Below, piece after piece: positions 16,020 through 45,050 of a stretch of 45,050 nucleotides of DNA (position 1 is the stretch's first letter; each line of letters begins with the position of its first letter). The notes under the pieces were generated by a model, which was not told where the DNA came from, made no database searches, and saw nothing but the letters and a program-made list of their open reading frames with translations. The translations under genes were made by a program, and so were the position numbers. This DNA comes from Caldifarciminota bacterium (lineage in GTDB: Bacteria; Hydrothermota; UBA3073; JACQXS01; JAGMCI01). Location: assembly GCA_023129325.1 (NCBI GenBank), contig JAGMCI010000024.1, positions 1 to 45,050 on the forward strand, read 5' to 3'.

Positions 16020-17265
16020 GACAATTATTCCAGTCGGTCCTTATCATCCATTACAGGAAGAACCTGAGTTTTTTGAACTTGAGGTTGAGGGAGAAAGAGT
16101 TGTAAAACTTAATATAAAGATAGGTTATAATCATCGCGGGATTGAAAAATTATCAGAAAGCAAGCATTTTGACCAGGTAACATTTCTTGTAGAGAGAATA
16201 TGCGGGATATGTTCCACATCACATCCATTTGCCTATGTTCAGGCAGTAGAGGATTTAGCCGGGATTGAAATTCCTGAAAGGGCAAAATATATAAGATGTA
16301 TAATAGGTGAGCTTGAAAGACTTCATTCTCATCTTTTATGGCTTGGGCTTGCTGGGCATTTTATTGGATACAATACCTTATGGATGTGGGCATGGAAATA
16401 TAGAGAGACTGTATTAGATTTATGTGAACAGATTTCAGGGAATAGAAATCATTATGCGATGATGAGAATCGGTGGAGCGAGGAGAGATATATTAAATAAG
16501 GAAATTGATGAACTAAAGAAGAAAACTGCCACCCTGACATCAGTTCTCAATATGTTCAAGGGGGCAGTGATGGATGACCCAGTTATTGCAGCAAGAACAA
16601 AGGGCATAGGAATTTTAACAAAAGAGCAAGCGATTAACTATTGTGTTGTGGGCCCAACCGCAAGAGCATCAGGGATTGATATAGATGTGAGAAGGGATAG
16701 TCCACATAATAGCGCCTATAATCTTGTTGAATGGAATGTTCCCGTACTTCCTGATGGTGATGTTTTTGCCAAAGTAGTGGTGAGAATCCTTGAGATGCTT
16801 GAAAGTGTGAAAATAATTATACAGTGTCTTGATAGGTTAAAAGATTTAAAGGAAGGAGAAATATGGAATGAGGTGAGAGATATACCTGCTGGTGAAGGAA
16901 TTGGGACTTATGAAGCACCTCGTGGCGAGGTATTTCATTATGTTCGCTCAGATGGTGGGAATACTCCGTTCAGGCATAAAGTAAGGGCTCCTTCTTATAT
17001 GAACATTTTATCTAACGAGGTAGCAGTGATTGGAGGAGACATTGCAGATGCTTGCATAACTTTAGCGGCAGTAGACCCTTGTTACTGTTGCACTGATAGG
17101 ATACAAGCAGTTGAAAACAGACCCGCCTGCCCGCTTCGCCAAAGCTCCAGCGAGGCGAGCCATTCGTCGGGCAGGAAATTAAAATACAATTGGGAACAAC
17201 TGCTTAAATTATCGCAGGAGAAGACTAAGAGAATATTAAGCATCAAAAATCAAGTATCAAAATGA
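15994..17265 (+). CDS. Group 4 [NiFe] hydrogenase large subunit (NuoD/MbhL type)
   Basis: This is the catalytic subunit. Both nickel-binding cysteine pairs are intact: C70/C73 (ERICGICSTSHPF) and C363/C366 (DPCYCCTDR). That separates it from NuoD and from the Mbx-type sulfur-linked homologues and supports true H2 chemistry. In family members such as HycE the precursor is cut after the arginine of that second motif; here the segment after R369 would be a 54-residue pro-peptide. That pro-peptide holds an in-frame palindromic insertion (about 17121-17175, RPACPLRQSSSEASHSSG), and its last residues plus the stop come from a family C repeat (SIKNQVSK). Confidence 0.95.
   Translation: MNKDQKKRKTIIPVGPYHPLQEEPEFFELEVEGERVVKLNIKIGYNHRGIEKLSESKHFDQVTFLVERICGICSTSHPFAYVQAVEDLAGIEIPERAKYIRCIIGELERLHSHLLWLGLAGHFIGYNTLWMWAWKYRETVLDLCEQISGNRNHYAMMRIGGARRDILNKEIDELKKKTATLTSVLNMFKGAVMDDPVIAARTKGIGILTKEQAINYCVVGPTARASGIDIDVRRDSPHNSAYNLVEWNVPVLPDGDVFAKVVVRILEMLESVKIIIQCLDRLKDLKEGEIWNEVRDIPAGEGIGTYEAPRGEVFHYVRSDGGNTPFRHKVRAPSYMNILSNEVAVIGGDIADACITLAAVDPCYCCTDRIQAVENRPACPLRQSSSEASHSSGRKLKYNWEQLLKLSQEKTKRILSIKNQVSK
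17121..17175. repeat. Palindromic element inserted in frame in the hydrogenase large-subunit gene
   Basis: Exact arms CCTGCCCG (17126-17133) and CGGGCAGG (17168-17175) enclose inner near-complements (CTTCGCC, GGCGAG). It is far more GC-rich than the surrounding gene and encodes about 18 residues with no counterpart expected in the family. It falls after the predicted HycI-type cleavage site. Confidence 0.8.
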
Positions 17266-17411
17266 CAAAATATAAATTGAAGTAAAAGGCTATAGGTGAG
17301 GAAGCCCGTTTCGTAGTTCGGTTACGGCTTTCGTCACCCAAAGCCGATTGACGAAACGGGTCTCGTCACCGTAACCGATTGACGATTTTATATGTAATTT
17401 TGATATTTGAT
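17261..17411 (+). repeat. 151-bp repeat with family A core, left border of the NuoL/Mrp cassette
   Basis: It contains a full family A hairpin element (17284-17390) plus shared flanks. It matches 23801-23951 at all but one position by eye (17397 A against 23937 T), at an offset of exactly 6540 bp. Family C words (ATCAAAAATCAA on the left, TTTTGATATTTGATT on the right) surround both copies. Confidence 0.9.
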
Positions 17412-17425
17412 TCTTACTTTTTGAT

Positions 17426-19249
17426 ATGAATATTTTATTGCCCATAGAGCTCAGTCTTATTGCTGGAATATTTTTCCTTTTTCTGCCTGAAAAAGCAAAA
17501 CTGTTTACCAAGGTGGTTGCTCCATTAATAGGGATTCTCAATTTTATCCTTTCGATAATTTTATTCTTTCCCATCGGAGGCGGAAACTTTGTGGTTCCTT
17601 CTTATGCCTCAAATTTTGTCCTAACTGACTTGCTTTCAAGGTTCATTTATTTGGGCGTTGGGTTCTTTGGATTTATAATCTCTTTGTATGGAACAGGCTA
17701 TATAACCAAGAATGTGAATAGATTTTTTGCATATTTCTTTTTAACTTTGGGGTCTGCTTTTGCAATAGGGATTGCAGATAACCTCATAGTATTACTTGTT
17801 TTCTGGGGATTCTTGGGCATGACTCTTTATATGTTGATACAACTTGGTAAAGAGGGAGCAAACCTGTCCGACGTCCTGCAGGCAGGTGAGGCGGCAAAGA
17901 AAACACTTATAATCATTGGGGCGTCTGATTGTTTCTTAATTATGGGAATTGGAATCTTATGGTATCTTACAAATAGCTTTAGGATAACAGAAATTTCTCT
18001 AATCACTAATTACTCACCACTAATTACTTTCTCTTTTGTCTGTTTTGCGATTGCTTCTTTTGCCAAGGCAGGCAATATGCCGCTTCATACCTGGATTCCG
18101 CCCTGTGCCGCAAGTGCGCCTATTCCAGTGACTGCTTATCTGCCAGCTTCTCTGGATAAACTTTTGGGAATTTACCTATTATCAAGATGTGTTATCTCAT
18201 TATATAAGGTATCACCCGGACTTTCTACTTTTGTGATGATTGCAGGCGCATTGACCATAATTTTTGCAGTATTTATGGCTATGATACAACATTCAGGAAG
18301 AAAATTATTATCTTACCACGCCGTATCACAGGTTGGATATATGGTTTTAGGCATTGGAACACTTAACCCAATAGGGATTTGCGGTGGTTTATTTCATATG
18401 ATAAATAATGCAATTTATAAATCCTGCTTGTTTTTGGGATTGGGAAGTGTTGAAAAGAATACAGGAACAGATGATTTAGACAACTTGGGTGGGCTTGCAA
18501 AAAAGATGCCTCTCACTCTATTTACTATGCTTACTGCTTCTTTAGCAATATCTGGTATCCCTCCGTTAAATGGGTTCTTTTCAAAATGGATGGTCTATCA
18601 GGGAGTTATAAACACTTTTAGTAGTCGTAATGCGTTTATTCCTGCTTTATGTTTGATTGCTGCCTTATTTGGGAGTGCCCTTACATTAGCAAGCTTTATG
18701 AAACTTATTCATTCAATATTTTTAGCAAGAGAATCAAAAATGAAAACTTCCCACTTCCCACTTCCCATTTCCCACTTCTTACTTATCTTGCCTCAGCTAA
18801 TTCTTGCCATAGCCTGTATAGTTCTTGGTATATTTGCTTATCCTATAATTATTAAGCCAGTTTTTCAAAATATTTTACCATTTGAGGCAGGAGGGATATG
18901 GCAACCGGAATGGGCAGCTATTTTGATAATTGCAGGTGTGGTTTTGGGGTTCATAATCTATGGCGTCTCAAGGATAAAGGTGAGAGTTACGCCTGAATTT
19001 ATAGGTGGGGAAAAAGTTACACCAGAGATGAAAGTCTCGGGAACTGAGTTCTATTTGACAATAGAGGAAATGCCATTCTTTGGAAAGATTTACGAATGGG
19101 CTAAAAAGAGGTTTTTTGATATTTATGATATTTTTAGAGCATGGGTGTTTTTCTTCACAAAGGTCTTTAGATTTGCCCACTCAGGGTCCTTGCCGATTTA
19201 CTTGCTCTGGATTTTGGGAGGGTTAGCAATAATTTTACTAATATGGTAG
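17426..19249 (+). CDS. NuoL/MrpA-N-terminal-like antiporter subunit
   Basis: A large ion-pumping subunit of 607 residues with about 14-16 membrane segments. The family core is visible: SFAKAGNMPLHTWIPPC with K214, then SAPIPVTAYLPASLDKLLG, and LLSYHAVSQVGYMVLG. A hydrophilic C-terminal part (about 545-590) ends in one more helix, as in MbxH'/HyfB-type subunits. Three stretches look like in-frame repeat insertions: a palindrome-like ACCTGTCC...CAGGCAGGT at about 17862-17887, SLITNYSPLI at 191-200, and KTSHFPLPISHF at about 440 (CACTTCCCACTTCC words). It overlaps the next gene by 7 nt. Confidence 0.88.
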   Translation: MNILLPIELSLIAGIFFLFLPEKAKLFTKVVAPLIGILNFILSIILFFPIGGGNFVVPSYASNFVLTDLLSRFIYLGVGFFGFIISLYGTGYITKNVNRFFAYFFLTLGSAFAIGIADNLIVLLVFWGFLGMTLYMLIQLGKEGANLSDVLQAGEAAKKTLIIIGASDCFLIMGIGILWYLTNSFRITEISLITNYSPLITFSFVCFAIASFAKAGNMPLHTWIPPCAASAPIPVTAYLPASLDKLLGIYLLSRCVISLYKVSPGLSTFVMIAGALTIIFAVFMAMIQHSGRKLLSYHAVSQVGYMVLGIGTLNPIGICGGLFHMINNAIYKSCLFLGLGSVEKNTGTDDLDNLGGLAKKMPLTLFTMLTASLAISGIPPLNGFFSKWMVYQGVINTFSSRNAFIPALCLIAALFGSALTLASFMKLIHSIFLARESKMKTSHFPLPISHFLLILPQLILAIACIVLGIFAYPIIIKPVFQNILPFEAGGIWQPEWAAILIIAGVVLGFIIYGVSRIKVRVTPEFIGGEKVTPEMKVSGTEFYLTIEEMPFFGKIYEWAKKRFFDIYDIFRAWVFFFTKVFRFAHSGSLPIYLLWILGGLAIILLIW

Positions 19250-20180: not shown

Positions 20181-20512
20181 TTTACATATTACCAATTATT
20201 CTATTCTTGATTGCACTTTTTGGTATTGTGGTAAAGAGAAATCTGATAAAAATAATTATTTCCATTAGTATAATGGAATATGCTATTTTCTTGTTCTTTG
20301 CTTTAATAGGCTATAGAGTGGAAGGGGTTCCTCCAATTGAAGTTGAGGGAGTAAGGTATGTTAAATTTGTTGACCCCTTGCCTCAGGCACTTGTTCTTAC
20401 GGCAATTGTCATTGGGCTTGCGACAACGGCTTTGCTTGTAGCAATAGCAGTAAGAATTTACCAAAAATACGGAACCTTTGATATTGAGAAAATGAGGAAA
20501 TTAAAAGGATAA
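20177..20512 (+). CDS. mrpC: Na+/H+ antiporter subunit MrpC (NuoK/MbhG type)
   Basis: A 111-residue NuoK-like protein with three membrane helices. FVDPLPQALVLTAIVIGLATTALLV is the family hallmark around 65-90. The first helix carries LFGIVVKRNLIKIIISI, and a helix-borne glutamate occurs in SIMEYAIF. Its stop is followed at once by a family B repeat that separates it from mrpD. Confidence 0.93.
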   Translation: MIYILPIILFLIALFGIVVKRNLIKIIISISIMEYAIFLFFALIGYRVEGVPPIEVEGVRYVKFVDPLPQALVLTAIVIGLATTALLVAIAVRIYQKYGTFDIEKMRKLKG

Positions 20513-20662
20513 AAATGAAAAATTCTAAATCCGAAACCCTAATTTCTAAACAATATTTAAATCCCAATTCTCTAATGTTACAAATCTGTTTGGGATTTGG
20601 AATTTTAGACATTGGAATTTGTTTAGGATTTAGTATTTAGGATTTAGAGTTTATGAAATGAA
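20513..20662. repeat. Family B repeat, solo copy between mrpC and mrpD, with possible target duplication
   Basis: It begins AAATGAAAAATTCTAAATCCG, shares its left end with the element at 22932-23456 and ends GGATTTAGTATTTAGGATTT, like that element's right end. AAATGAA occurs at both borders (20513-20519 and 20656-20662), the right copy including the mrpD start codon. There is no gene inside. Confidence 0.75.
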
Positions 20663-22130: not shown

Positions 22131-22131
22131 C

Positions 22132-22677: not shown

Positions 22678-22931
22678 TGAATATTTTAATTATTATTTTG
22701 ATAGGCTTATGCTTCTTGTGTCTGTTAAGGGCAGCACTTGGCCCAACACTTGCAGATAGAATGGTTGCAATAGATATATTGGGAATTTTGGTTGTTGGCA
22801 TCTGTGCTCTTTTGTCAATAAAGACAGGAAGAGAGTTCTTAATTGATATTGCATTAGCTTGGATTTTCTTGTCATTTATTGGAACAATTGCACTTGCAAA
22901 ATATTTGGAGGGGAAGAAATTTGATGAGTGA
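22677..22931 (+). CDS. mrpF: Na+/H+ antiporter subunit MrpF (MbhB type)
   Basis: An 84-residue, three-helix protein with the MrpF signature RAALGPTLADRMVAIDILG near 18-36 and an aspartate in the third helix (DIALAWIFLSFIGTIALAKYL). Its last codons, GATGAGTGA, form the left copy of the apparent target duplication of the element inserted downstream. Confidence 0.94.
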   Translation: MNILIIILIGLCFLCLLRAALGPTLADRMVAIDILGILVVGICALLSIKTGREFLIDIALAWIFLSFIGTIALAKYLEGKKFDE

Positions 22932-23364
22932 CCAAATGAAAAATTCTAAATCCGACCCTGAACTTGCTTCAGGGCTAAATTCTAACCAAGCTCAAATGTC
23001 TCAAACTCCAAATCTCAAACAAAGGCATCATTATGACTTAGAAGAAAGAACCTTTCTTTTTGCCAAAAGAGTGAATAAATATGTGAACAAGCTTCCAAAA
23101 ACGATTTCAAATATTGAGAATAGTAAGCAATTGGTAAAATCATCTGGTTCAGTAGGAGCAAATTATATCGAAGCAAATGAATCATTGAGTAAGAAAGACT
23201 TCAAAATGAGAATAAAAATTTCTAAGAAAGAAGATAAAGAAAGCCGTTACTGGTTGAGATTGACGGAACCTTTAAAGGAAGAAATTGAAGAAAAAGGAAA
23301 AGTAATTAGAGAATCTACGGAACTGATGAAAATTTTTGGTTCTATTTTAGAAAAGGCAAAATGA
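22924..23364 (+). CDS. Four-helix-bundle protein of the 23S rRNA intervening-sequence (IVP/S23) family
   Basis: A 146-residue protein. Its core matches the IVP family: YDLEERTFLFAKRVNKYVNKL, then SGSVGANYIEANESLSKKDF, then KEDKESRYWLRL. Such proteins are known from open reading frames inside 23S rRNA insertions and as stand-alone genes in many candidate phyla; their biochemical role is not settled. The ATG used here (22924) is the old mrpF-mrpG junction, and the first ~30 residues (MSDQMKNSKSDPELASG...) come from repeat words, including the palindrome CCCTGAA/TTCAGGG (22956-22974). It overlaps mrpF by 8 nt, so it is probably expressed from the operon. Confidence 0.85.
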   Translation: MSDQMKNSKSDPELASGLNSNQAQMSQTPNLKQRHHYDLEERTFLFAKRVNKYVNKLPKTISNIENSKQLVKSSGSVGANYIEANESLSKKDFKMRIKISKKEDKESRYWLRLTEPLKEEIEEKGKVIRESTELMKIFGSILEKAK

Positions 23365-23456
23365 AAAATACTAAAATACCACGTGTTTGGGACATTGAAA
23401 TTTAGGATTTGGAGTTTGTTTAGAATTTAGTGCTTAGTATTTAGGATTTATTAAGA
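22932..23456 (+). mobile_element. Insertion carrying a four-helix-bundle (23S-IVP-type) gene, with target duplication
   Basis: About 525 bp interrupt the mrpF-mrpG junction. GATGAGTGA (22923-22931) on the left and GATGAGCGA (23457-23465) on the right agree at 8 of 9 bases and look like a target duplication containing the original mrpG start. The ends are family B words (ATGAAAAATTCTAAATCC on the left, TTAGTATTTAGGATTT on the right). No transposase is encoded. Solo copies of the ends occur at 5461-5583, 12769-12914, 20513-20662 and 38463-38603. Confidence 0.7.
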
Positions 23457-23805: not shown

Positions 23806-23951
23806 CAAAATATAAATTGAAGTAAAAGGCTATAGGTGAGGAAGCCCGTTTCGTAGTTCGGTTACGGCTTTCGTCACCCAAAGCCGATTGACGAAACGGG
23901 TCTCGTCACCGTAACCGATTGACGATTTTATATGTATTTTTGATATTTGAT
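23801..23951 (+). repeat. 151-bp repeat with family A core, right border of the NuoL/Mrp cassette
   Basis: Near-identical to 17261-17411 (one mismatch seen). Family A core 23824-23930, flanked by family C words on both sides (AAAAATCAAAATGCAAAATG; TTTTTGATATTTGATATTT). It supplies the stop codon of mrpG and the leader of the next gene. Confidence 0.9.
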
Positions 23952-23970: not shown

Positions 23971-24567
23971 ATGCGGTATCCAAAATTAAGAGAGTTAAAG
24001 GAGGCTATTAAATGTATATTTACAAAGCCCGCGACTACAAAATATCCCTTTGGGCCAGCAAAAATTCATCCAAGGTATCGTGGGAAACCTGAATTTCAGG
24101 ATGAATGCCTGGGATGTGAAGCCTGTAAAGAAGTTTGTCCTTCAGGAGCGATTGAGGTTGTTGATGATGTAAAGAATAAGAAAAGAAAACTTATACGACG
24201 CTTTGATATGTGCATAACTTGTGGAGAATGTGAGAGGATTTGTACTTGTAAAGAAGGCGTAAAGATGGTGCCAGAGTTTGCTTTCGCTGTATTTAAGAAA
24301 GAAGATTTAACTGATATAATTGAAAGAGACTTAATTGTCTGCGAAAATTGTGGAAAAGTAATTGCTACCAAAAAACACATATTATGGCTTATGGAGAACT
24401 TAAAAGAGAAAGGAGCTTCTTATTTGCCTTTTGTAATTATGAGCTTGAAAGAGATAGGAATATATGAGAAAGTTGAGAAAAAGACAACCTTGGATAAAAG
24501 GCAAGCCCTATTTAGTATCTTGTGTCCAAGATGTCGGCATAAGATATTTTTGTATGATGCTCTTTGA
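23971..24567 (+). CDS. NuoI/MbhN/HyfH-like ferredoxin subunit with C-terminal zinc ribbon
   Basis: This 198-residue protein is the peripheral electron-entry subunit of the hydrogenase. Two [4Fe-4S] motifs lie at C46/C49/C52/C56 (CLGCEACKEVCP) and C81/C84/C87/C91 (CITCGECERIC). A cysteine pair at C124/C127 and another at C185/C188 (CENC, CPRC) suggest a zinc ribbon, as in HyfH-type subunits. The usual proline after the second cluster's last cysteine is absent (CTCKEG). It is separated from the other complex-I-like genes by the Mrp cassette and overlaps the protease gene by 14 nt. Confidence 0.92.
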   Translation: MRYPKLRELKEAIKCIFTKPATTKYPFGPAKIHPRYRGKPEFQDECLGCEACKEVCPSGAIEVVDDVKNKKRKLIRRFDMCITCGECERICTCKEGVKMVPEFAFAVFKKEDLTDIIERDLIVCENCGKVIATKKHILWLMENLKEKGASYLPFVIMSLKEIGIYEKVEKKTTLDKRQALFSILCPRCRHKIFLYDAL

Positions 24568-25057
24568 TAAATTAAAAAAACAGATAAGAGACAGTTTCTT
24601 GATAATGGGTGTCGGAAATGAACTCAAGGAATATGATAGGATAGGTGTTGACGTAGCAAAAATGGGGAAAGAGTTATTTCCAGAGGAATTCATAGTAGGT
24701 GGTCTTGCGCCTGAAAATTTCTTGGGCAAGATTATAAAGGCAAAAATTAGCACTTTGATAATCGTAGATGGGGTCTATTTTGATGGCACAGATAGTGTTA
24801 GACTTTTAAGTCCTGAGGATTTAACTTTGCAGGGTATTTCAACTCATTCCCTATCTCTAAAATTAATGGCAGAATATTTGAAAAATTATGATATTCAAAC
24901 TGTAATAATTGGCATAAAGCCAACCTGCCTGCCCCGCTCCGACGAGCGAAGCGGGACGGAGACGACAAGGCAGGTTAACGATGACACAATGGAGGTTAAA
25001 AAGGAAGTTCTTTCTGCACTTATGGAGTTAATCAGGAATAAAAATAACACGAGCTAA
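24554..25057 (+). CDS. HycI-type hydrogenase maturation endopeptidase
   Basis: This protease clips the C-terminal pro-peptide of the large subunit after nickel insertion. From ATG 24554 the product is 167 residues; an earlier in-frame start lies inside the NuoI-like gene and is rejected. Family features: GVGNELKEYDRIGV (19-32) with D28, VDGVYFDG with D72, and THSLSL with H98, the three expected nickel-sensing residues, then IIGIKP (118-123). Straight after GIKP comes an in-frame palindromic insertion (about residues 124-142, TCLPRSDERSGTETTRQVN), after which the family's last helix resumes (DDTMEVKKEVLSAL). Confidence 0.9.
   Translation: MMLFDKLKKQIRDSFLIMGVGNELKEYDRIGVDVAKMGKELFPEEFIVGGLAPENFLGKIIKAKISTLIIVDGVYFDGTDSVRLLSPEDLTLQGISTHSLSLKLMAEYLKNYDIQTVIIGIKPTCLPRSDERSGTETTRQVNDDTMEVKKEVLSALMELIRNKNNTS
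24922..24976. repeat. Palindromic element inserted in frame in the protease gene
   Basis: Exact arms AACCTGCCT (24922-24930) and AGGCAGGTT (24968-24976), inner arms CCCGCT and AGCGGG. It is GC-rich against the AT-rich gene and shares the GCCTGCC/GGCAGG outer words with the insertions at 17121-17175 and 43834-43905. Confidence 0.8.
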
Positions 25058-25067: not shown

Positions 25068-25108
25068 TTCCTACTTCCCACTTCCTACTTCCTACTTCCC
25101 ACTTCCGG
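25068..25108. repeat. CACTTCC/CTACTTCC tandem word repeat
   Basis: The gap after the protease gene holds a run of CTTCCTACTTCCCACTTCC units. The same words occur inside coding sequences at about 18748-18782, 38141-38176, 38262-38297 and 44460-44478. No terminator hairpin is evident for the hydrogenase operon. Confidence 0.7.
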
Positions 25109-32231: not shown

Positions 32232-32398
32232 GAGTGCTCAGTCCCTATCGTCATCGTAACTCTGAAGAGTAGGAGCAACCTCCTGGTTGCGACCTAATGT
32301 TTTTTCGTCCCGATAAAATCGGGGCTCCTACCAAAGCTTTAGGTTATGTGACGAAAGTCGTAACCTAACTCCGATACGGGCATCCTCACCCTAACCTT
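32232..32398. repeat. Composite repeat: GTAGGAGC units, CCCGAT palindrome and a degenerate family A copy
   Basis: Left part: GTAGGAGCAACCTCCTGGTT and TCCCGATAAAATCGGGGCTCCTAC, nested palindromes. Right part (about 32330-32398): a shortened family A copy (GTGACGAAAGTCGTAACC, CCGATACGGGCATCCTCACC). The end of this copy, read on the minus strand, encodes the last residues and TGA stop of the glycosyltransferase gene. Confidence 0.7.
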
Positions 32399-33588
32399 CT
32401 AAAGAGAAGTTTATATTCTTTTATTATCTTTTTACCAATCTCTTCTGAGTCAAAGGACTTTAATCTATTATATGTGGTTGTCCGCCCAAGGGCATAAAGT
32501 AATTTTTGAGCAAGAGATACTGGGTCGCTAAACTTAGCATAGATACCCTCATCACCCAAAATTTCATAGTTTATTTTTGATTCAAAGGCAACTATCGGCA
32601 GTCCAATAGCCATATAATTTAATAGCTTGCCATTTCCTTCTGTCCTTGAAAGCTTTGGGGATACAGCAACATCTGCTAAAGAAAGATATTTATACGCCTC
32701 AAAATAAGAAATCCTGCCTAAGAAAGTTGCTGATTCCTCAAGACCGAGGGTTTTTGCTCTTTCACGATAATAGTCAACTCTTGGATAGCCGAGAATTAGA
32801 AAATGAATATCCCTTCTCTCTTTCAGGACAATTTTTGCCGCCTCAAGCAAAAGAGGTATTCCTTGATAATCGCTTAAATAGCCAAGATAAACAATTATTT
32901 TCTTGCCCTTTGGGATACCAATCTTTTTAAGGACAGGGATGAGCCCTGTCTCTACTCTTTTGAATGTTTTTAAGTCCACACAATCGTGAATAATTTTAAT
33001 CTTAGCAGGAGACACTTTAAAATCATTTATTAAATCTCTTTTTGCTTTGTTTGAATTTGTAAAAATAACATCTGGCAGATTATCTATTTTTCTTTCCAAA
33101 AAGCGTATAAATTTTAATCCCCTTTTTACACCATGCTGGATGAGTTCGCTGCTCAAACTTCCTTGATAGTCAAAAATTAAAGGTATTTTAAATAATTTAC
33201 TTAATATAGAGCCAATAAATGCCCCTTCATGCAAATGAGAATGAATAATTGTGGGCTTAAATGATTTCGCAACTTGAATTGACTTTAAGAGTATAAGGAA
33301 GTCAAGCCCAATCTTATGCAAAGAAGGACCTGCCTCATATTTTTTATACCATGGGATATATGGGATTCTCTCAATTTGTAGCCCCTTAATGTCTTTGCCA
33401 ATATGATAAGTTATAATGACTACTTCCCCTGAACTTGTTTCAGGGCTAATTTTCTGTAATATCTTTGTTTGTTCATAAATTCTAACATGGCAACCTCTAT
33501 CAGAAAAAAATGGAGTAGGTGCAAGAACAAGAATGCGATATGCGATATGGGATTTCACGCTTTTAATGCGTTGATTTTTGTCCCGCAC
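32386..33588 (-). CDS. Family 4 glycosyltransferase
   Basis: A 400-residue GT-B enzyme using a nucleotide sugar, probably in surface glycan synthesis. N-terminal domain: LVLAPTPFFSDRGCHVRI, HSHLHEGAFIG. C-terminal domain: IIVYLGYLSDYQGIPLLLEAA, then the retaining EX7E region as SRTEGNGKLLNYMAIGLPIVAF. The start is unsure: GTG 33588 lies in a CCCGCACTT palindrome, and GTG 33558 is an alternative; the natural N-terminus, near RILVLAPTP, has been overwritten by repeat words. A CCCTGAA/TTCAGGG palindrome (33427-33445) encodes SPETSSGE in frame. The C-terminal RLG and stop come from a family A copy. Confidence 0.88.
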   Translation of the reverse strand: MRDKNQRIKSVKSHIAYRILVLAPTPFFSDRGCHVRIYEQTKILQKISPETSSGEVVIITYHIGKDIKGLQIERIPYIPWYKKYEAGPSLHKIGLDFLILLKSIQVAKSFKPTIIHSHLHEGAFIGSILSKLFKIPLIFDYQGSLSSELIQHGVKRGLKFIRFLERKIDNLPDVIFTNSNKAKRDLINDFKVSPAKIKIIHDCVDLKTFKRVETGLIPVLKKIGIPKGKKIIVYLGYLSDYQGIPLLLEAAKIVLKERRDIHFLILGYPRVDYYRERAKTLGLEESATFLGRISYFEAYKYLSLADVAVSPKLSRTEGNGKLLNYMAIGLPIVAFESKINYEILGDEGIYAKFSDPVSLAQKLLYALGRTTTYNRLKSFDSEEIGKKIIKEYKLLFRRLG

Positions 33589-33651
33589 TTATGTATAAGT
33601 GCGGGATGATTCTTGCATTAACATTCTGTGTCTATCTGCGTGCATCTGCGG
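33583..33651. repeat. CCCGCACTTAT palindrome and ATCTGCG-type repeat
   Basis: CCCGCACTTA/TAAGTGCGGG (about 33583-33606) overlaps the start region of the glycosyltransferase gene. It is followed by TGTGTCTATCTGCGTGCATC words shared with 35735-35775 and 39262-39355. Confidence 0.6.
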
Positions 33652-34572
33652 TTAATATTTTTTTACTACATAAGTTGGTTTGTTTTGGGATTCATAATAG
33701 GTGCGGGATATTATTTCGCCTAAAAGTCCCAAAATGATGAACTGGATGCCAATAATTATAAGCAGGATGGTTAAATAAAGTAAAGGGTTGCCAGTAATGT
33801 CTACTTTGCGAGGTCCTATTTTCATTATTATTGTTATAATCCCTGAGATTAATGCTACAATAATGGAAATTATGCCCCATAGCCCAATTAGTTGAATTGG
33901 CGAACTGGCACTACTTAAGAAAAATCTTACCGCAATTACATCAAGAATTACCCTCGGCGTTCTTGAGAGTCCATATTTTGGGGTCCCAAATTTTCTCGGC
34001 TTATGGTTGACCTCAAGTTCTGTAATCCGTGCTCCTTTAAAGGAAAGGATGGCTGGAATAAATCTATGCATCTCACCATAAAGCTTTAGACCATTAAGTA
34101 TAGTTTTGCGATAAGCCTTTAGAGTGCAACCAAAATCGTGAAGCCTCACTTTAGTTAAAGAAACTATTACTTTATTGGCAATAAAAGAGGGGATTTTCTT
34201 TGAAATAGGGTCACGCCTTTTCTTCCTCCAGCCTGATACTATATCATAGCCCTCATTAAGCTTATCAATTAGTTTTGGAATATCATTTGGGTCATTTTGT
34301 AAATCTCCGTCAAGGGTTATAATAATATCGCCATTTGCATTATCAAACCCAGCCTGAATAGCTTGAGTTTGCCCAAAATTCTTTGTGAATTGGATAACCT
34401 TAATTTCAGGGATTGCTTTTAATTTATCAAAAGTAGAATCAGTGCTTCCATCATCAATAAATATGATTTCATAGCTCCTATTTAAGCCATCAAGAACTGA
34501 CTTTAATGCTTTATAAAGAGACAGAACATTCTCCTCTTCATTGAAAACAGGAATAACGCAAGAAATATCCAC
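33652..34572 (-). CDS. Family 2 glycosyltransferase, polyprenyl-phosphate type
   Basis: A 306-residue protein of the ArnC/GtrB/DPMS group, which loads a sugar from a nucleotide donor onto a lipid phosphate. The GT-A domain has CVIPVFNEEENV, IFIDDGSTDST and the metal-binding LDGDLQNDP (DxD). It is followed by FGTPKYGLSRT and two C-terminal membrane helices (about 232-255, 268-292). It starts with GTG directly after the dnaN stop (TAAGTG), so translation is probably coupled to dnaN, an unusual partner. Confidence 0.9.
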   Translation of the reverse strand: MDISCVIPVFNEEENVLSLYKALKSVLDGLNRSYEIIFIDDGSTDSTFDKLKAIPEIKVIQFTKNFGQTQAIQAGFDNANGDIIITLDGDLQNDPNDIPKLIDKLNEGYDIVSGWRKKRRDPISKKIPSFIANKVIVSLTKVRLHDFGCTLKAYRKTILNGLKLYGEMHRFIPAILSFKGARITELEVNHKPRKFGTPKYGLSRTPRVILDVIAVRFFLSSASSPIQLIGLWGIISIIVALISGIITIIMKIGPRKVDITGNPLLYLTILLIIIGIQFIILGLLGEIISRTYYESQNKPTYVVKKY

Positions 34573-35689: not shown

Positions 35690-35878
35690 TCACGGAATCA
35701 CAGAAAAAAGAAAGAAACACAGAATCGTCTCTTTTGTTTAATCTGTGTCTATCTGTGTTCATCTGCGGTTACACCTTGAATTAAATATAAATTCCGTGTT
35801 TCCCTCATGGAGTTTATCCCGCAAAATGCGGGATGTTTCCGTGATTTCTTATTTCTAAACACCCTCTATCTTGCTGTG
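35690..35878. repeat. ATCTGTGTCTATCTGTG-type repeat with ATCCCGCA palindrome
   Basis: CACGGAATCACAGAAAAAAG and ACACAGAAT words on the left, their complements ATCTGTGT and TTCCGTG on the right, and an inner palindrome ATCCCGCA/TGCGGGAT (35817-35834). The right end runs into the stop of the RCC1 gene. No gene is seen. Confidence 0.6.
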
Positions 35879-36853
35879 TTATCTTAATTTTATGAGCTTT
35901 ACTGGCTCGTATCCCTTAACTTTCAAGAAATAGATGCCAGATTTAACTTCTTTGCCATCTTTGTCTTTGCCATCCCAAGAAACAGCAGTGGTTAGTGGTA
36001 AGTGATTAGTGTTAAAAGTTTTAATCAACCTGCCACTTAAATCGTAAACCTTTAAACTTACTTTTTGTCCTTCACTAATCCCTAAACACTTAACACTGAC
36101 CACTGCAGTAAATGGGTTTGGATAAACTTTTAAATTTTGATTTTTAATATTTGATTTTTGATATTCTTCAACCCCGGTAAGCTCGCCTATTGCAAGTGAA
36201 TGATACTCTCCTCCTGAAATTGCAATAACATCTGTTAAATTATGTGTCTTGACAGGCTCCCAGCGGCTGGTAGTAGTGCTATCTCCAAGCTCTCCATAGT
36301 AGTTGTCTCCCCAGCCCCATACAGTGCCGTTAGACTTTAAGGCAAGTGAATGACAATATCCTGCTGAAATTGCAATAACACCTGGTATATGTGTCTTGAC
36401 AGGCTCCCAACGGTCAGTATTAGTGCTATCTCCAAGCTGTCCATAGTAGTTGCTTCCCCAAGCCCAGACGGTGCTATCAGACTTTAAAGCAAGTGAATGC
36501 CAACTTCCTCCTGTAATCGCAATAGCATCTGTTAAATTATGTGCCTGAACAGGCTCAAGACGAGTAGTATCAGTGCTATCTCCAATCTGTCCGTACAAGT
36601 TCCATCCCCAAGCCCAGACAGTAGAATCAGACTTTAAGGCAAGTGAATGATACCTTCCCGCTACAATTGCAATAGTATTTGTTATATGTGTCTGAACTGG
36701 TTCACAGCGGTCAATAGTAGTGCTATCTCCAAGCTGTCCGTAGCAGTTGTATCCCCAAGCCAAAACCTCTGCATCTGCGTGAAGTCTTCCTGCACCTGCC
36801 AATAAACACATCCCAATAAAAATTGGGACAATAAATGCATTAAATCTATTCAT
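35879..36853 (-). CDS. Secreted RCC1-repeat protein with FlgD/Por-like C-terminal domain
   Basis: From ATG 36853 (Shine-Dalgarno AGGGAGG) a 324-residue exported protein: a signal peptide ending near AGAGRLHADA, then four nearly identical ~50-residue RCC1 units (VWAWGSNYYGQLGDS, HSLALKSDST). A seven-bladed propeller would need about seven, so this gene is either contracted or its product oligomerises. The tail is a FlgD-like sorting/Ig domain (VYPNPFTAVVSV, SWDGKDKDGKEVKSGIYFL). At least three repeat words lie in frame: EYQKSNIKNQNLK (family C), CLGISEGQ, and NTNHLPLTT. Confidence 0.85.
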   Translation of the reverse strand: MNRFNAFIVPIFIGMCLLAGAGRLHADAEVLAWGYNCYGQLGDSTTIDRCEPVQTHITNTIAIVAGRYHSLALKSDSTVWAWGWNLYGQIGDSTDTTRLEPVQAHNLTDAIAITGGSWHSLALKSDSTVWAWGSNYYGQLGDSTNTDRWEPVKTHIPGVIAISAGYCHSLALKSNGTVWGWGDNYYGELGDSTTTSRWEPVKTHNLTDVIAISGGEYHSLAIGELTGVEEYQKSNIKNQNLKVYPNPFTAVVSVKCLGISEGQKVSLKVYDLSGRLIKTFNTNHLPLTTAVSWDGKDKDGKEVKSGIYFLKVKGYEPVKLIKLR

Positions 36854-37238: not shown

Positions 37239-37778
37239 ATGAAAGTGAAAAGTGATGCAGAACTTATTAAAAATTATAAATTAGGTGATGAAGAAAGTTT
37301 TGAAAAGTTATTATGTAAGTATAAAGGGCCTTTGTTTAACTATATTTTAAAAATGATAGGCAATAAAACTATTAGCGAAGACATTTTTCAAGATGTATGG
37401 TTAAATATAATTAAATCATTACATAGATATAAAGAGAGAAATAAATTTTCAGCATATTTATTTAAATTGGCTCATTCAAGAACTATTGACCACCTGAGAA
37501 AACAGAAACATGAAATACAAGTAGCGCGGGGGTTTATCCCCCGCTATTCTCTATCGCCTCATGAAGCTATTTACAAGAAGGAACTTATTTCTATTTTAAA
37601 TAATGCTGTTTCAAAATTATCTTTAAAAGAAAAGGAAGTATTTTTATTAAGACAACATACTGAAATGACTTTTAAGGAAATTGCATTAATGCTCAAGTGC
37701 CCGCTTAATACAGTTCTTGGGCGTATGCATAATGCTATCCTTAACTTAAGGAAGACTTTTAAAAATGCTGAATTATAA
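37239..37778 (+). CDS. ECF-type RNA polymerase sigma factor
   Basis: A 179-residue alternative sigma factor. Region 2 (about 8-90) shows EESFEKLLCKYKGPLFNYI, AEDIFQDVWLN-like ISEDIFQDVWLNI, and FSAYLFKLAHSRTIDHLRK. Region 4 (about 115-172) has LSLKEKEVFLLRQHTEMTFKEIALML and a helix-turn-helix. The linker between them holds an in-frame palindrome, GCGGGGG/CCCCCGC (37526-37544), giving VARGFIPRYS. The anti-sigma gene follows 88 nt downstream. There is no Shine-Dalgarno at the ATG. Confidence 0.92.
   Translation: MKVKSDAELIKNYKLGDEESFEKLLCKYKGPLFNYILKMIGNKTISEDIFQDVWLNIIKSLHRYKERNKFSAYLFKLAHSRTIDHLRKQKHEIQVARGFIPRYSLSPHEAIYKKELISILNNAVSKLSLKEKEVFLLRQHTEMTFKEIALMLKCPLNTVLGRMHNAILNLRKTFKNAEL
37526..37544. 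repeat. Palindrome in frame in the sigma factor linker
   Basis: GCGGGGG (37526-37532), loop TTTAT, CCCCCGC (37538-37544), all G/C inside an AT-rich gene. It codes for about seven residues between regions 2 and 4, where ECF linkers tolerate length change. Confidence 0.8.
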
Positions 37779-37866: not shown

Positions 37867-38457
37867 ATGAAGTGCAATAAGTTTTCTCAAGTTGGAATGC
37901 TCTATCTTTACAATGAGCTCCCTGAATTAGAAAAAAAGGAGTTTGAAAAACATTTAAAGAAATGCAAAGAATGCTCTACAAGACTTATGGAGGCAAAAGA
38001 TGTTGTAAGGGCATATAAAAACTTGCCAAAAGAGGAGCCATCTCCTGAAACTATTATGTGGTTATGCCGTTCTGCTGTGATGCAGTTAAGAAAACAGCAA
38101 AACCGCAGAACCGCAGCACAGTTTATTAAAAGAAAGTTTGCCCACTTCTCACTTCCCACTTCTCACTTCCCACTTCTATTAAGACCAGTCCGCATTAGGC
38201 GGATTGCTTTTGCAGGTGGGATGGTGGTCCTCATATTTATTGGCTATCTTTTCTTTCAATCCCACTTCCTACTTCCCACTTCTCACTTCTCACTTCAATG
38301 GAGTAATGGAATAGACAAAAGAATTGAATCCCTTAGTGAACGTATTTCTCTATTACAAGAAGAAAAAGTTTCGTTTTCCATTGATGACCAGCTAACAGAA
38401 ATCAGCTCCAGGATTAGTAATTTTAAAAAAGAGCTACAAAATGAACAAATATTTTAA
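37867..38457 (+). CDS. Anti-sigma factor with N-terminal zinc-binding domain
   Basis: A 196-residue membrane protein. An N-terminal anti-sigma zinc domain (HLKKCKEC, about 30-39) would hold the sigma factor. A membrane helix (about 110-128, IAFAGGMVVLIFIGYLFF) and a periplasmic coiled-coil-like tail (KRIESLSERISLLQEEK) follow. CACTTCCCACTTC words lie in frame on both sides of the helix: FAHFSLPTSHFPLLL and SHFLLPTSHFSL. The second lies exactly where the polypeptide leaves the membrane, adding about 12 residues of unusual composition. Confidence 0.85.
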   Translation: MKCNKFSQVGMLYLYNELPELEKKEFEKHLKKCKECSTRLMEAKDVVRAYKNLPKEEPSPETIMWLCRSAVMQLRKQQNRRTAAQFIKRKFAHFSLPTSHFPLLLRPVRIRRIAFAGGMVVLIFIGYLFFQSHFLLPTSHFSLQWSNGIDKRIESLSERISLLQEEKVSFSIDDQLTEISSRISNFKKELQNEQIF

Positions 38458-38462: not shown

Positions 38463-38603
38463 AGATTATGGGAAAATTCCAAAATCCAAATCACAAATTC
38501 CAAACAAATTCAAATGACCAAATTTTAAAATTCGAAACAAGTTTATATTTTGGGATTTGGGATTTATTTGAGATTTGGTGCTTGAGATTTGAGATTTTAG
38601 AAG
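38463..38603. repeat. Family B-like repeat, solo copy
   Basis: AAATTCCAAAATCCAAATCAC and AATTCCAAACAAATTC on the left, with complements TTTGGGATTTGGGATTTATT and GCTTGAGATTTGAG on the right. It is a diverged solo copy of the ends seen around the four-helix-bundle gene. The next gene's Shine-Dalgarno begins right after it. Confidence 0.6.
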
Positions 38604-39261: not shown

Positions 39262-39355
39262 ATATAACCGCAGATGGACGCAGATATACGCGGATTATTT
39301 AAGAATAAATGAATTTTCTATTATCTGTGTTTATCAGCGTTTATCTGCGGTTTCA
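39262..39355. repeat. CGCAGAT/ATCTGCG inverted repeat
   Basis: ACCGCAGATGGACGCAGAT and ACGCGGATT on the left arm; ATCTGTGTTTATCAGCGTT and ATCTGCGGT on the right. It lies between convergent genes. Related words occur at 33620-33650 and 35735-35775. The remainder of the 39207-39379 gap shows nothing. Confidence 0.7.
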
Positions 39356-39379: not shown

Positions 39380-40150
39380 TTACATATTATAAGAAAGTCC
39401 AGCGTAAAATGCTTGATGGGAACCTGGCTCTTTGTATTCGCCCTTTTTTATAAAAGTATATCTCCAGGTCGCATCAATTGAAATTGGTGTCACAGGAGGC
39501 TTTAGCTTTAGCCCCAATAATATATGTCCCCCAGTCTTTGTGCTTGACTTAAGAAGTTTACCTATGTCAAATTTATAATTCGGAGGCTCAATTACATCAT
39601 AAATTAAGAAACTGGATAAGACAGGCGTCATAAATTGCACATTGCCGCCAACTCCTGCATAGAAAAAGAACGCACTTACCTCTGGGGGAAAAGAGAAAAG
39701 GTCTTTCTTGAGAGTTAAAAAAAGACCAATCCTTATGAACCCCGCATCTCCACTTACCGTATCTTTAGCCGTGCCATAAGATTCATACTTATAATGATAC
39801 TTTTTAAACCCCACATCTGCACCAATCTCTAAATCCAAAACTGGAATAACATCAAGACAAAACTTTGCCCCAACTAAAAGGGGGTCAAAAATCTCATCCC
39901 TGACTAAATTCATATAAGCAGTGTCAGCCACAGGACCTTGTAACCTAAATACATCAACTGAATCATAGTTTACTGTATAAAGGTCTTGCCCAACTGTTAT
40001 GCCTACACTAAACATTCCATAAGAAACAACTGAACTGCAGCACAAAAGCACTGCAATTCCATACATAATTACTAATTTTGGAGTGCAAAAACGGTGTTTT
40101 TGCATGCAACGACATAGTAGTTGCACTCCATATAGCATTAACTTCTTCAT
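39380..40150 (-). CDS. Outer-membrane beta-barrel type protein
   Basis: From ATG 40150 (Shine-Dalgarno AGGAGGGGAG) a 256-residue exported protein. The frame extends further upstream but that part is repeat-rich and unlikely to be coding. After the signal peptide come alternating hydrophobic strands with glycine/aromatic patterns (LLVGAKFCLDVIPVLDLEIGADVGFKK, FIRIGLFLTL, AFFFYAGVGGNVQF, HILLGLKLKPP) and a terminal FYAGLSYNM, typical of small outer-membrane barrels. Its signal peptide holds an in-frame GGAGTGCA-type insertion (40081-40131, encoding about VQLLCRCMQKHRFCTP). Confidence 0.72.
   Translation of the reverse strand: MKKLMLYGVQLLCRCMQKHRFCTPKLVIMYGIAVLLCCSSVVSYGMFSVGITVGQDLYTVNYDSVDVFRLQGPVADTAYMNLVRDEIFDPLLVGAKFCLDVIPVLDLEIGADVGFKKYHYKYESYGTAKDTVSGDAGFIRIGLFLTLKKDLFSFPPEVSAFFFYAGVGGNVQFMTPVLSSFLIYDVIEPPNYKFDIGKLLKSSTKTGGHILLGLKLKPPVTPISIDATWRYTFIKKGEYKEPGSHQAFYAGLSYNM
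40081..40131. repeat. GGAGTGCA-type palindrome inside a signal-peptide coding region
   Basis: GGAGTGCAA (40081-40089) and TTGCACTCC (about 40121-40129) are complementary ends, with inner AAAAACGGTGTTTTTGCATG. It has the same family as 37786-37854 and 28143-28165, here within the first 25 codons of the barrel gene. Confidence 0.75.
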
Positions 40151-40433
40151 CTCCCCTCCTTCCGCTGTTCTTTTCTCCGATTTGTTGGAGGATTTAGAAC
40201 AGCGAGAACCCCGCCTGTCCCGATTCAATCGGGAATTCATCGGGGGAGTTAGAACATTGATAAAATCCTTTATCCTCCACTTTGAGTTTAAGATACACTT
40301 TTTTTCTTTGAATGTCAAGATAAAATGTATCGCATATTCCTATGATTTTCTATTTTAAAATAGCTCATAAATTAGACACAAGTTCACTTATACCAGATAT
40401 TTTAAGACCCCGCTGTGATGTGGAGGTTCTTAA
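40151..40433. other. Gap with CCCGATTCAATCGGG palindrome, no supported gene
   Basis: The 283-bp stretch holds a palindrome cluster (about 40208-40245, TCCCGATTCAATCGGGA and CATCGGGGG), TTAGAAC words on both sides, and a TTGACA on the minus strand (TGTCAA, 40313-40318) that may belong to the barrel gene promoter. Frames across it are short and repeat-derived. Confidence 0.4.
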
Positions 40434-43265: not shown

Positions 43266-43277
43266 AACCTTTCATAT

Positions 43278-43306: not shown

Positions 43307-43354
43307 GTAAAAAGGAGAAATGGGAAATGTCCTTAACTTGTCAGATAGAAATTT

Positions 43355-43378
43355 GAGACAGAGCTTTTTCTCTGTCTC
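43355..43378 (-). terminator. Hairpin downstream of lnt
   Basis: GAGACAGAG (43355-43363) pairs with CTCTGTCTC (43370-43378), 9 bp, with a 6-nt loop, 12 bp past the lnt stop. No T-run follows on the minus strand, so it is a weak terminator candidate or an mRNA 3'-end stabiliser. Confidence 0.4.
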
Positions 43379-43389
43379 TATCTCAAGAC

Positions 43390-45050
43390 TCATTCTTTCC
43401 CCTTTTCCCTATTCTTACACTTTTTTGACAACTTTCCCCTGAATATAAATCTTAAATTTAAGAGCCAGAAAAGAAATCCTACGCAAATCCAGGCAAACCA
43501 ATCCCCATATCGCGCATAAAAAGTTAATCTTTTCCTTAATGGTATCTTGCTTACAATGACTTTTTGAGTAAAAATTTCAGTAACATCTCTTGTCTCGCCT
43601 CTTGGATTTACAAAATATGAAATGCCTGTATTGCCACATCTCACAACCGTAGTCCCGTATTCAATTGCCCTTAAAATTGCTTGATTTGCATGTTGATAAG
43701 GCCCAGCAGTCCTCCCAAACCAGCAATCCTCAGTTATGTTTACCAAGAACTCTGCACCCCCACGAACAAAACGCCTTGAAATGCGAGGGAAAATAGACTC
43801 AAAACAAATAAGACAGGAAAATTTAAACCCGGGCTTGCCTGCCGTCCCTGTCCCGATATAATCGGAATGTCTGGTAGGCCCGCCTGCCGTCTGTCGGGCA
43901 GGTAATTCAAATACAGTATACTCACTGCCCTTTGAAAAATCGCCTTGCCCAAAATTGGGCCTTCGTAAACCTGGAAAGAGCTCATCAAAAGGAAGACGTT
44001 CAGCAAATGGTACAAGATATATTTTATCGTAAAATTCTTTGATTCCCTCTCTCGGAACAACTAAAAAACAGGAATTGTAAATCTTCCTTCCGCCTATCCT
44101 TGTTGCCCCCATTATAGCAGGTATATTCAATGAATCAACTATTTTACAGACTTTTGATTGTAGGGGCGTATTGACTTCGGCGAGCTCATTCAAGCCGCTA
44201 TGCGCCCCTCCAAGATAGCCTGGTATTGCTGTTTCAGGCCAGATTAGTAAATCGCATTTCCCAGCTTCCTTGCTTAAAGTATAAAGCGTAGAGAGCCTGA
44301 AATCTATCTCGCCATACCTCTTTATTTCAGGAAAAATATTTGGCTGAACCACCCCCACCTTAATGTACTTCCTACTTCTTCCGAAGGAATCCCGTTTCGG
44401 ATTTCTTCGGAACGGGGCCACTTCTTCCGAAGTCCCGATAAATCGGGATTCGGAACGGGGCCACTTCCCACTTCTTAGTGTTATTTTGCCTTCAACATAA
44501 ACCACACAGATTATAGCCACCGCCCCAATAAGATAGCTCAATTTTTTTCTCCATAGTGCATAAAAAAGGAGTGAGTTTATTAAAAGAATAAAAAATGTTA
44601 TCCCCGGTAGTCCTATAAAGCGAGCAAACTGAATAAAGGGTAGCATAGGCATCTTGCCTGTGACCAGGGCATATCCTATGCTTCCCCACGGAAAGCCAAT
44701 TTCGGGCGTAAGGGACCTTAAAAATTCAATCCCAGTCCATACAAGTGGTGGAATAATAAAACTTTTTACCCGCCTTGAAAACAAAATTGAAAATCCAAAT
44801 ACAAATCCATAATATATAAATAAAAGTAAAACTCCAAGCCATAACCATGTTCTCATAGGGACTTCAACAGCCAGAACCCAGTAAAGGAGCCCTGCACTGA
44901 AAACAAAGCCTGCTATAAAACCATATTTAAAAGCTCCTTTCTCATACATTACAAAAAATATAGGTATGAAACTCACAAAAATAAGCGCAGGAAGCCAGTA
45001 AAAAGAAATAAGAAGCAAAAAAGATGTGAGTAGACTTAAAAATATTTTAC
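43390..45050 (-). CDS. lnt: Apolipoprotein N-acyltransferase, 5' end outside the window
   Basis: Lnt adds the third acyl chain to lipoproteins in the inner membrane. The frame is open to the window edge (KIFLSLLTSFLLLISFYW before the first TTG at 45018), so only a few residues are missing. Several N-terminal membrane helices are followed by the nitrilase-like domain with IWPETAIPG (glutamate), FYDKIYLVPFAERLPF (lysine) and CLICFES (cysteine), then one C-terminal helix. Two in-frame insertions lengthen it: about 37 residues before IKVGVVQPN (44368-44478) and about 24 just before the catalytic FSCLICFE (43834-43905). Confidence 0.94.
   Translation of the reverse strand, partial: KIFLSLLTSFLLLISFYWLPALIFVSFIPIFFVMYEKGAFKYGFIAGFVFSAGLLYWVLAVEVPMRTWLWLGVLLLFIYYGFVFGFSILFSRRVKSFIIPPLVWTGIEFLRSLTPEIGFPWGSIGYALVTGKMPMLPFIQFARFIGLPGITFFILLINSLLFYALWRKKLSYLIGAVAIICVVYVEGKITLRSGKWPRSESRFIGTSEEVAPFRRNPKRDSFGRSRKYIKVGVVQPNIFPEIKRYGEIDFRLSTLYTLSKEAGKCDLLIWPETAIPGYLGGAHSGLNELAEVNTPLQSKVCKIVDSLNIPAIMGATRIGGRKIYNSCFLVVPREGIKEFYDKIYLVPFAERLPFDELFPGLRRPNFGQGDFSKGSEYTVFELPARQTAGGPTRHSDYIGTGTAGKPGFKFSCLICFESIFPRISRRFVRGGAEFLVNITEDCWFGRTAGPYQHANQAILRAIEYGTTVVRCGNTGISYFVNPRGETRDVTEIFTQKVIVSKIPLRKRLTFYARYGDWFAWICVGFLFWLLNLRFIFRGKLSKKCKNREKGKE
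43834..43905. repeat. Palindromic element in frame in lnt, next to the active-site cysteine codon
   Basis: GC-rich nested palindromes: GCCTGCC...GGTAGGC around CCGATATAATCGG, then CCTGCCGTCTGTCGGGCAGG. It encodes about ARQTAGGPTRHSDYIGTGTA, between the strand VFELP and FKFSCLICFE. Outer words are shared with the insertions in the hydrogenase and protease genes. Confidence 0.8.
44368..44478. repeat. Composite palindromic element in frame in lnt
   Basis: Two CCCGTTTCGG/CCGAATCGGG-type palindromes (ATCCCGTTTCGGATTTC; CCCGATAAATCGGGATTC), each followed by GGAACGGGGCCACTTC, are flanked by CTTCCTACTTC and CACTTCCCACTTC words. It encodes about 37 residues (RSGKWPRSESRFIGTSEE...) between the last membrane helix and the catalytic domain. 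Confidence 0.8.

Follow-up and report, generated by a model that had tools for sequence, protein, structure and literature searches.

The window analysed here, a stretch of 45,050 nucleotides (nt), is the entire contig C17 of a WOR-3/Stahlbacteria genome (2.02 Mb in 57 contigs, 89% complete). It encodes, among others, a hydrogenase large subunit, a NuoL-like subunit, a HycI-type protease, RimI, a GT4 glycosyltransferase, an extracytoplasmic function (ECF) sigma factor, an anti-sigma factor, a predicted barrel protein and Lnt. A sequence-only reading of the window had proposed that these genes, and one for an RCC1 protein, carry short palindromic or repeat-word segments inserted in frame. The segments concerned are listed below, with families of recurring elements designated by letters; REP stands for repetitive extragenic palindromic sequence and REPIN for a REP doublet forming hairpins.

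17121-17175, plus strand: GC-rich composite palindromic element in the hydrogenase/NuoD-like large subunit gene (15994-17265), about 18 extra residues
17862-17887, plus strand: palindromic element of 26 nt within the NuoL-like gene (17426-19249), adding 8 residues (LSDVLQAG)
18000-18033, plus strand: CTAATTA-type run of 7-bp repeats (heptads) in the NuoL-like gene, not an insertion
18746-18788, plus strand: array of ACTTCCC heptads, located in a linker of the NuoL-like protein
24922-24976, plus strand: element of family A, CCTGCCTGCC..CCGCTCCGACGAGCGAAGCGGGACGGAG..GGCAGG, within the gene for the HycI-type protease (24464-25057)
30914-30944, minus strand: family E element (GGTTCACCACGACCTTCGCCACGGAGTGG) in rimI (30776-31243), 9 extra residues
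31083-31107, minus strand: heptad-like ATGGTGAATGGCGAGTGG run in rimI, adding 6-7 residues
33427-33445, minus strand: palindrome CCCTGAACTTGTTTCAGGG within the GT4 glycosyltransferase gene (32386-33588), adding 5-6 residues
33578-33609, no strand assigned: family G element (CCCGCACTTATGTATAAGTGCGGG) across the 5' edge of the GT4 gene
36192-36766, minus strand: RCC1-like protein repeats, two 278-nt units, by eye not a mobile element
37521-37544, plus strand: REP of family Q with a GTAG tag (GTAGCGCGGGGGTTTATCCCCCGC) in the ECF sigma gene (37239-37778)
38127-38193, plus strand: ACTTCCC/ACTTCTC heptad array in the anti-sigma gene (37867-38457)
38247-38299, plus strand: second ACTTCCC heptad array in the anti-sigma gene
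40079-40130, minus strand: 52-nt REPIN of family R, with TGGAGTGCAA ends enclosing two hairpins, close to the start of the barrel gene (39380-40318)
43878-43903, minus strand: family C element (CCTGCCCGACAGACGGCAGGCGGG) in lnt (43390-45018)
44158-44173, minus strand: TTGTAGGGGCGTATTG, one half of a GTAG-tagged element of family H, in lnt, partly opposite a gap
44400-44480, minus strand: GGAACGGGGCCACTTC repeats combined with a CCCGATAAATCGGG hairpin in lnt, partly opposite a gap

At most of the sites that we could test, the residues encoded by the segment were lacking in homologous proteins. The element of the hydrogenase large subunit, which consists of a family B core (GCTTCGCCAAAGCTCCAGCGAGGCGAG) between CCCGCCTGCC and GGGCAGG, was absent from 6/6 homologues, five of them 68-87% identical to the window protein. 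(A predicted structure of this subunit, based on a six-sequence alignment, had a mean predicted local distance difference test score (pLDDT) of 46.9 and was not used.) The residues LSDVLQAG of the NuoL-like protein were missing from 13/13 homologues, the nearest of which are from the same class, and the HycI element stood opposite a gap in 6/6. In RimI, the residues of the first site were absent from 11/11 homologues and partly gapped against N-acetyltransferases of the PDB; at the second site, 6-7 residues were absent from 10/11 homologues and 2 from the other one. The residues of the GT4 segment were lacking in the three nearest homologues, of about 30% identity, and the remaining ones were too distant to judge; the palindrome of this segment has one further copy in the 438 kb sampled from the genome, CCCTGAA-N5-TTCAGGG at window 22956-22974, in a predicted gene (22879-23364). 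At these sites, and at the second anti-sigma array and Lnt 43878-43903 described next, the insertions proposed from the sequence alone were borne out.

The other sites gave a more mixed picture. The ECF sigma segment is a genuine member of family Q, but the linker that holds it does not exceed in length that of the two nearest homologues and showed no clear gap. In the anti-sigma protein, at least 6 residues of the second array were absent from 6/6 homologues (27-38% identity), the first array being less clear. The barrel segment, first read as 40081-40131, proved to be a genuine member of family R; a homologue search with the predicted barrel protein returned none with which an insertion could be compared. 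The three marks in Lnt fared unequally: the residues of 43878-43903 were absent from the sole homologue found, and the other two were only partly opposite gaps. A comparison with E. coli Lnt (PDB, HMMER) paired the residues of 43878-43903 without a gap and did not settle the insertion. Two proposals were not confirmed. The NuoL segment at 18000-18033 aligned without a gap, or with a gap of one residue, in 13/13 homologues, and the RCC1 segment is better read, by eye and without homologue comparison, as a 297-nt-spaced repeat of an RCC1-like-repeat protein.

We then consider the genome from which the window comes, through a sample of 438,050 bases (the window plus 20 stretches), about one fifth of the genome. 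The sample is not random, as it combines the window with portions of three to four large contigs. In it, 408 genes were called from open frames and a hexamer score, and 91.6% of the sample is coding. Elements were identified with a dictionary of 11-mers over-represented relative to a trinucleotide model. A first pass yielded 266 elements of at least 11 nt, 170 of them in genes; because this count included protein-level repeats, it was replaced by one with a minimum element length of 16 nt. With this threshold, there were 171 elements, 95 in genes, 52 intergenic and 24 at gene edges, which agrees with the expectation of the sequence-only reading that the repeat words recur through the genome. 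Eight of the 95 in-gene elements were protein-level repeats in one stretch of L006, presumably TPR-like units. The remaining 87, distributed over 67 of the 408 genes, comprised 71 mostly GC-rich palindromic elements and 16 heptad arrays; their intergenic counterparts were 45 and 7, respectively. Per base, elements were about six-fold denser between genes (ratio in genes to between genes, 0.168). The NuoL insert LSDVLQAG escaped the dictionary altogether (coverage 0).

The 71 non-heptad in-gene elements had a mean GC content of 0.66 (genome, 0.37), and 43 of them possessed perfect arms of at least 6 nt, compared with 100 of 1000 shuffled elements. The description of the segments as GC-rich palindromes fits most of these elements, but not the heptad arrays, which are tandem repeats rather than palindromes. 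In-gene elements had on average 4.83 open frames out of six, versus 3.63 for intergenic ones. An error of assembly in one contig was discarded, as the pattern recurred on all sampled contigs of the genome.

To assess insertion, the protein of each in-gene element was aligned with up to 6 homologues from the sampled relatives and the residues opposite gaps were counted. Fifty-six elements could be tested, or 48 after leaving out the 8 protein-level repeats. At least half of the residues were opposite gaps in 36 of these 48 elements, versus 27 of 1073 control stretches of equal length from the same genes (Fisher p = 2.7e-40). This supersedes an earlier test with 47 elements, in which 19 reached a gap fraction of at least 0.6, versus 34 of 1028 controls. 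For 43 of the 95 in-gene elements, one homologue spanned both flanks in a single open frame, while the same homologue was found on both sides of only 2 of the 76 intergenic or edge elements, these being the hydrogenase-NuoL spacer and a possible frame change near an N-terminus. Ten carrier genes matched curated protein families, and six of them, encoding RpoB, RpoC, EF-G, LeuRS, PurF and a phosphoglycerate mutase, scored above the curated cut-off.

These data bear on two other explanations. One is that the segments are chance GC-rich palindromes in an AT-rich genome, or fall in wrongly called genes. The mechanical gene calls and the 8 in-gene rows that were protein-level repeats speak in its favour, but the dictionary words exceed the expectation of the trinucleotide model by more than 60-fold, 43 cases have both flanks aligned in one frame and ten carriers match curated families, six above cut-off, so that we find this explanation scarcely credible. 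The other is that the inserts never appear in the proteins, being skipped by ribosomes, as in the mitochondrial translational bypass elements known as byps, or spliced out. The inserts do fold as hairpins and do lie in the essential proteins RpoB, RpoC, EF-G and LeuRS. Skipping, however, requires neither a conserved frame nor the absence of stop codons, yet the in-gene copies are read through in one frame and, in contrast to byps, we found no frame-breaking or stop-bearing inserts in genes; the 76 intergenic or edge elements yielded just the possible frame change and the inter-gene spacer mentioned above. Programmed removal or bypass is therefore very improbable.

In agreement with the idea that several families have spread in this lineage, many elements recurred as near-identical units (families A, B, C, D, E, F, G, H, J, K and R). 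Units measured 15-57 nt, and the longest composite listed was 109 nt of repeated unit K. Families were counted by their cores in about 537 kb, except Q, R, D and F, which were counted genome-wide. Family A (CCGCTCCGACAAGCGAAGCGGGACGGAG core) had 8 core copies, 7 of them in genes; family B had 10 copies (8 in genes) and family C 16 (13 in genes), the in-gene copies of C measuring 24 or 30 nt except for one 28-nt composite. Family F (TCCGCCTNAGGCGGA) had 101 sites. The GTAG tag was present in families Q, H, I and N and absent from A-G, J and R; the tagged word of family H occurred 12 times in genes and once between genes in the sample. Family D, which measured 27, 28 or 30 nt, had 19 copies, and none in 15 relatives. 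Its in-gene copies comprised 8 of 27 nt and 3 of 30 nt, and all three 28-nt copies were intergenic (p = 0.058), which suggests that a frame filter acts on this family. The threefold divisibility of the consensus lengths tested is weak evidence, because the consensus ends were chosen by the analyst. Families were also nested: F within the loop of G, E within the loop of H, C inside D and inside N, and A and E inside heptad arrays. This arrangement fits stepwise insertion.

The heptad arrays deserve separate treatment. Period-7 starts occurred at 8.7 per 100 kb (none for periods 4-6), and 25 of 38 lay in genes, in a sample that is 91.6% coding; the starts are thus denser outside genes though mostly inside. 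The commonest tandem periods were 7 and 14, here and in several relatives. The proposed insertion at 18748-18782 in the NuoL-like protein is ambiguous, and instructive in this respect. The linker does contain a heptad array, but three relatives have other heptad-like arrays there and are 3 residues shorter, and two have non-repeat sequence and are 1 residue longer. The heptad words differ (ACTTCCC in the window, ATTTCAC-like in L028, CTCATCA-like in L027, CTCATCG/CTCCTCA-like in L030), and the linker is repeat-free in L026 and L029. Microsatellite slippage with local duplication, which would make the repeats in place with no mobile element, agrees with the dominance of periods 7 and 14, with the 25 of 38 starts in genes and with the different words at one linker between species. 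It accounts neither for identical palindromes of 24-52 nt at unrelated places, nor for nesting, nor for palindromes beside transposase genes (see below). As a general explanation we regard it as unlikely, though it keeps some weight.

The small dispersed repeats of Nostoc (Elhai 2008) are reportedly very small mobile repeats that occur with heptameric repeats; our elements resemble them, by description and not by sequence, in being very small repeats alongside heptads. In the part of PMC4692102 cited here, 7-bp repeats of Xanthomonas and Nostoc are under-represented in coding regions. The present arrays are like these STRR-like (short tandemly repeated repetitive) heptanucleotide repeats in being degenerate 7-bp tandem arrays found genome-wide, and unlike them in that 25 of 38 period-7 starts lie in genes and that palindromes are nested in the arrays. 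Between the genes of the window we also noted AT-rich, degenerate period-7 runs of the AAATCC/ATTTAGG type (5460-5584, 12759-12900, 20491-20652, 23393-23449 and 38473-38597), which seem to be a second class of heptads that the GC filter does not capture, and an intergenic ACTTCCC array at 25070-25106 (plus strand).

Evidence for a mobilizing enzyme came from the REP-associated tyrosine transposases (RAYTs). Four genes of the genome matched PF01797. With the NCBIfam model for REP-associated tyrosine transposase (cut-off 80 bits), three scored above the cut-off (143.9, 95.1 and 112.8) and one just below (75.6). Each of the four had palindromes within 250 nt: GTAGGCACGA.. palindromes on both sides of the RAYT of contig C36, GTAGCCGA.. 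palindromes on both sides of that of C56, family R adjoining that of C22 (one copy with a changed end), and a family Q copy 111 nt from that of C18. A repeat-flanked RAYT gene was found for Q, R, I and N only. Family Q occupied 16 places in the genome at up to 2 mismatches, 6 of the 15 classified copies being in genes; it was also found in four order-level genomes of f2 and one of f4. Family R had 11 copies in this genome, 1 in G001 and 17 in G002, where a Y1 transposase was flanked by R on both sides. A 52-nt R REPIN was identical across families of the order (L269, G001:C14:48572-48623; G002:C26:3021-3072; L190), which suggests recent transfer or strong conservation. A search of the window with Rfam matched a tRNA alone, and two exact element patterns had no match among viral contigs, so that no phage vector was found for those two.

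According to the portions cited here of PMC3733652 and PMC3116915, REPs form superfamilies such as GTAG and CGTC with their RAYTs (PMC3733652) and are organised as REPINs (PMC3116915); published REPs are mostly intergenic, with copies inside genes in Opitutus terrae, Thauera and others (PMC3733652). Our elements share with REP/REPIN the short multi-copy palindromes, some of them GTAG-tagged, the head-to-head doublet of family R, RAYT genes beside cognate palindromes and also intragenic copies, already known there. They differ in that 95 of the 171 sampled elements are in genes and so not extragenic, and in the coexistence of many families, most without a GTAG tag or known RAYT. Judged from sequence, families Q, R, I and N would work like a REP/REPIN invasion, and the remaining families are possible members.

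The same pipeline was applied to relatives, whose samples ranged from 93 to 438 kb. The dictionary of this genome gave 475 matches per 100 kb on itself, 7.3 in G014 and 14.8 in G009. Four class-level relatives had repeats with different words, nearly always between genes: in-gene elements amounted to 0/54 in G014, 6/98 in G009, 5/31 in G011 (three being repeats in one gene) and 2/22 in G015. Six class-level genomes had 0 or 1 sites of family F (1 each in G013 and G015). Private insertions of at least 7 residues numbered 27 in 23,910 aa in the present genome (11.3 per 10,000 aa), 10 of them element-derived. The corresponding figures were 10 in 19,693 aa (5.1 per 10,000 aa; none element-derived) for G014, 6 in 12,160 aa (4.9; 1 element-derived) for G009 and 4 in 23,322 aa (1.7; none) for G001. 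The actual element-derived share in our genome is probably higher than 10/27, because the NuoL insert is a variant that the dictionary missed. Other genomes limit the contrast. G001, the sole genome of the same family, had 16 elements, 8 in genes (4 of which are repeats in one gene) and 5 between; G006 had 2 in genes and 3 between; and G002 had 12 in genes and none between, all of them protein-repeat-like. Family F had 92 sites in G006 and 51 in G003.

The comparison also addresses the view that the elements are functional and retained in genes for mRNA hairpins, gyrase sites or the tuning of linkers. Intergenic REPs elsewhere do act on mRNA or gyrase, according to the part of PMC3733652 cited, but here the sites are not common to relatives and, from one relative to another within a class, the families are completely replaced. 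We consider this view improbable.

Taking these results together, we think it likely that the segments represent copies from several non-autonomous micro-element families spreading in this lineage, with Q, R, I and N moved by RAYTs. Micro-elements (palindromes of 15-60 nt and period-7 arrays) would multiply and insert at any position of a genome whose coding share is about 92%; in-frame, stop-free copies would be tolerated at surface or linker positions of proteins, and frame-breaking copies would be removed by selection. The GTAG-tagged and TGGAGTGCAA families (Q, R, I, N) would be moved by the RAYTs of the genome, which would cut and join single strands at hairpins. The CCTGCC/CCCGCC families A-E would share the same ecology, as would the heptads and the short palindromes F, G and J.

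Several points weigh against this proposal. Recurrence, in-frame position, absence from homologues, nesting and transposase genes beside cognate palindromes were directly seen, but from these we infer transposition, the selection filter and the transposase-family pairing as cause. Families A-G, J and the heptads have no assigned transposase. The gene calls were home-made and mechanical, and for 52 of the 95 in-gene elements no homologue covered both flanks. Twelve of the 48 tested elements had less than half of their residues opposite gaps, five of them none; some elements may thus have replaced sequence rather than added to it, or the alignments fail. A prediction set beforehand, that family D copies of 27 or 30 nt are in genes, agreed only in part with the data, as 5 of 16 such copies, all of 27 nt, were intergenic. 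In family G (CCCGCAC..GTGCGGG), the arm-to-arm lengths in genes were 20, 22, 23 or 24 nt, which are not all multiples of three, so that core length alone does not predict the frame.

Not all repeats of the window enter genes. Family L, an 82-nt imperfect palindrome, lies between the hydrogenase large subunit and NuoL genes (17295-17376, no strand assigned), with further copies at 1289-1370, 23835-23916 and 29409-29497. All four core matches in the 537 kb were intergenic, and the core tested has two open frames of six. Two copies lie within 197-nt blocks that are 93% identical. In three relatives, the spacer that holds the L element in the window (17266-17425) contains a Y1 transposase-like open frame (L200 in G011, G014:C17:1565-1819 and G015:C55:2089-2343). 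The NuoL-like gene (17426-19249) was 75-80% identical to those of same-class genomes of another family and 46% identical to that of the sole same-family genome, which hints that the hydrogenase operon may have been horizontally transferred or differentially lost. Intergenic ATCTGTGTTTATCTGCGGTT-type repeats were seen at 33615-33656, 35732-35773 and 39314-39355, and one such repeat in L010 was interrupted by a family C element.

The closest precedent for the outcome is that of the Rickettsia palindromic elements (RPEs), of which in-frame fusions are described in the parts of PMC2229807 and PMC2635572 cited here. PMC2229807 gives for them 105-146 bp with 12-bp terminal inverted repeats, cites 19 reading frames, and reviews in-frame fusions of small mobile sequences in Rickettsia, enterobacteria and Neisseria. 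The likeness to RPEs stressed by the sequence-only reading stands, as in both cases palindromic repeats are fused in frame in conserved protein genes. Its statement that such repeats are little described elsewhere was too strong, since intragenic REPs (PMC3733652) and other small mobile sequences joined in frame to genes (PMC2229807) have been published. The present elements differ from RPEs in that they are mostly 15-60 nt long, form many families, occupy 67 of 408 sampled genes, coexist with RAYT genes and occur in another phylum. Our searches of the open-licence literature listed no publication describing elements of this kind in WOR-3 or Stahlbacteria.

This is a strong and unusual case of in-frame gene invasion by several micro-repeat families, for which known biology accounts in outline. 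By our estimate, about one gene in six of the sample (67/408) carries an insertion, where the count in Rickettsia is of dozens. A bolder reading, which we put forward tentatively and would not favour as it stands, is that protein genes may be the main habitat of selfish micro-DNA in this lineage, with families adapted to a 92% coding genome by codon-sized lengths and few stops in any frame; the swapping of heptad words at one linker between species would then mean a steady supply of new peptides to essential enzymes. The finding raises the question of what permits mobile DNA inside proteins, be it the length and stop content of the elements, the coding density of the genome or a weakness of selection, and this question can be addressed because the repeats of class-level relatives have other words and stay between genes. 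A caution follows for homologue-based annotation and structure models, which for such genomes include peptide inserts that are specific to the lineage and stem from DNA elements. The genome constitutes a natural collection of in-frame protein insertions.

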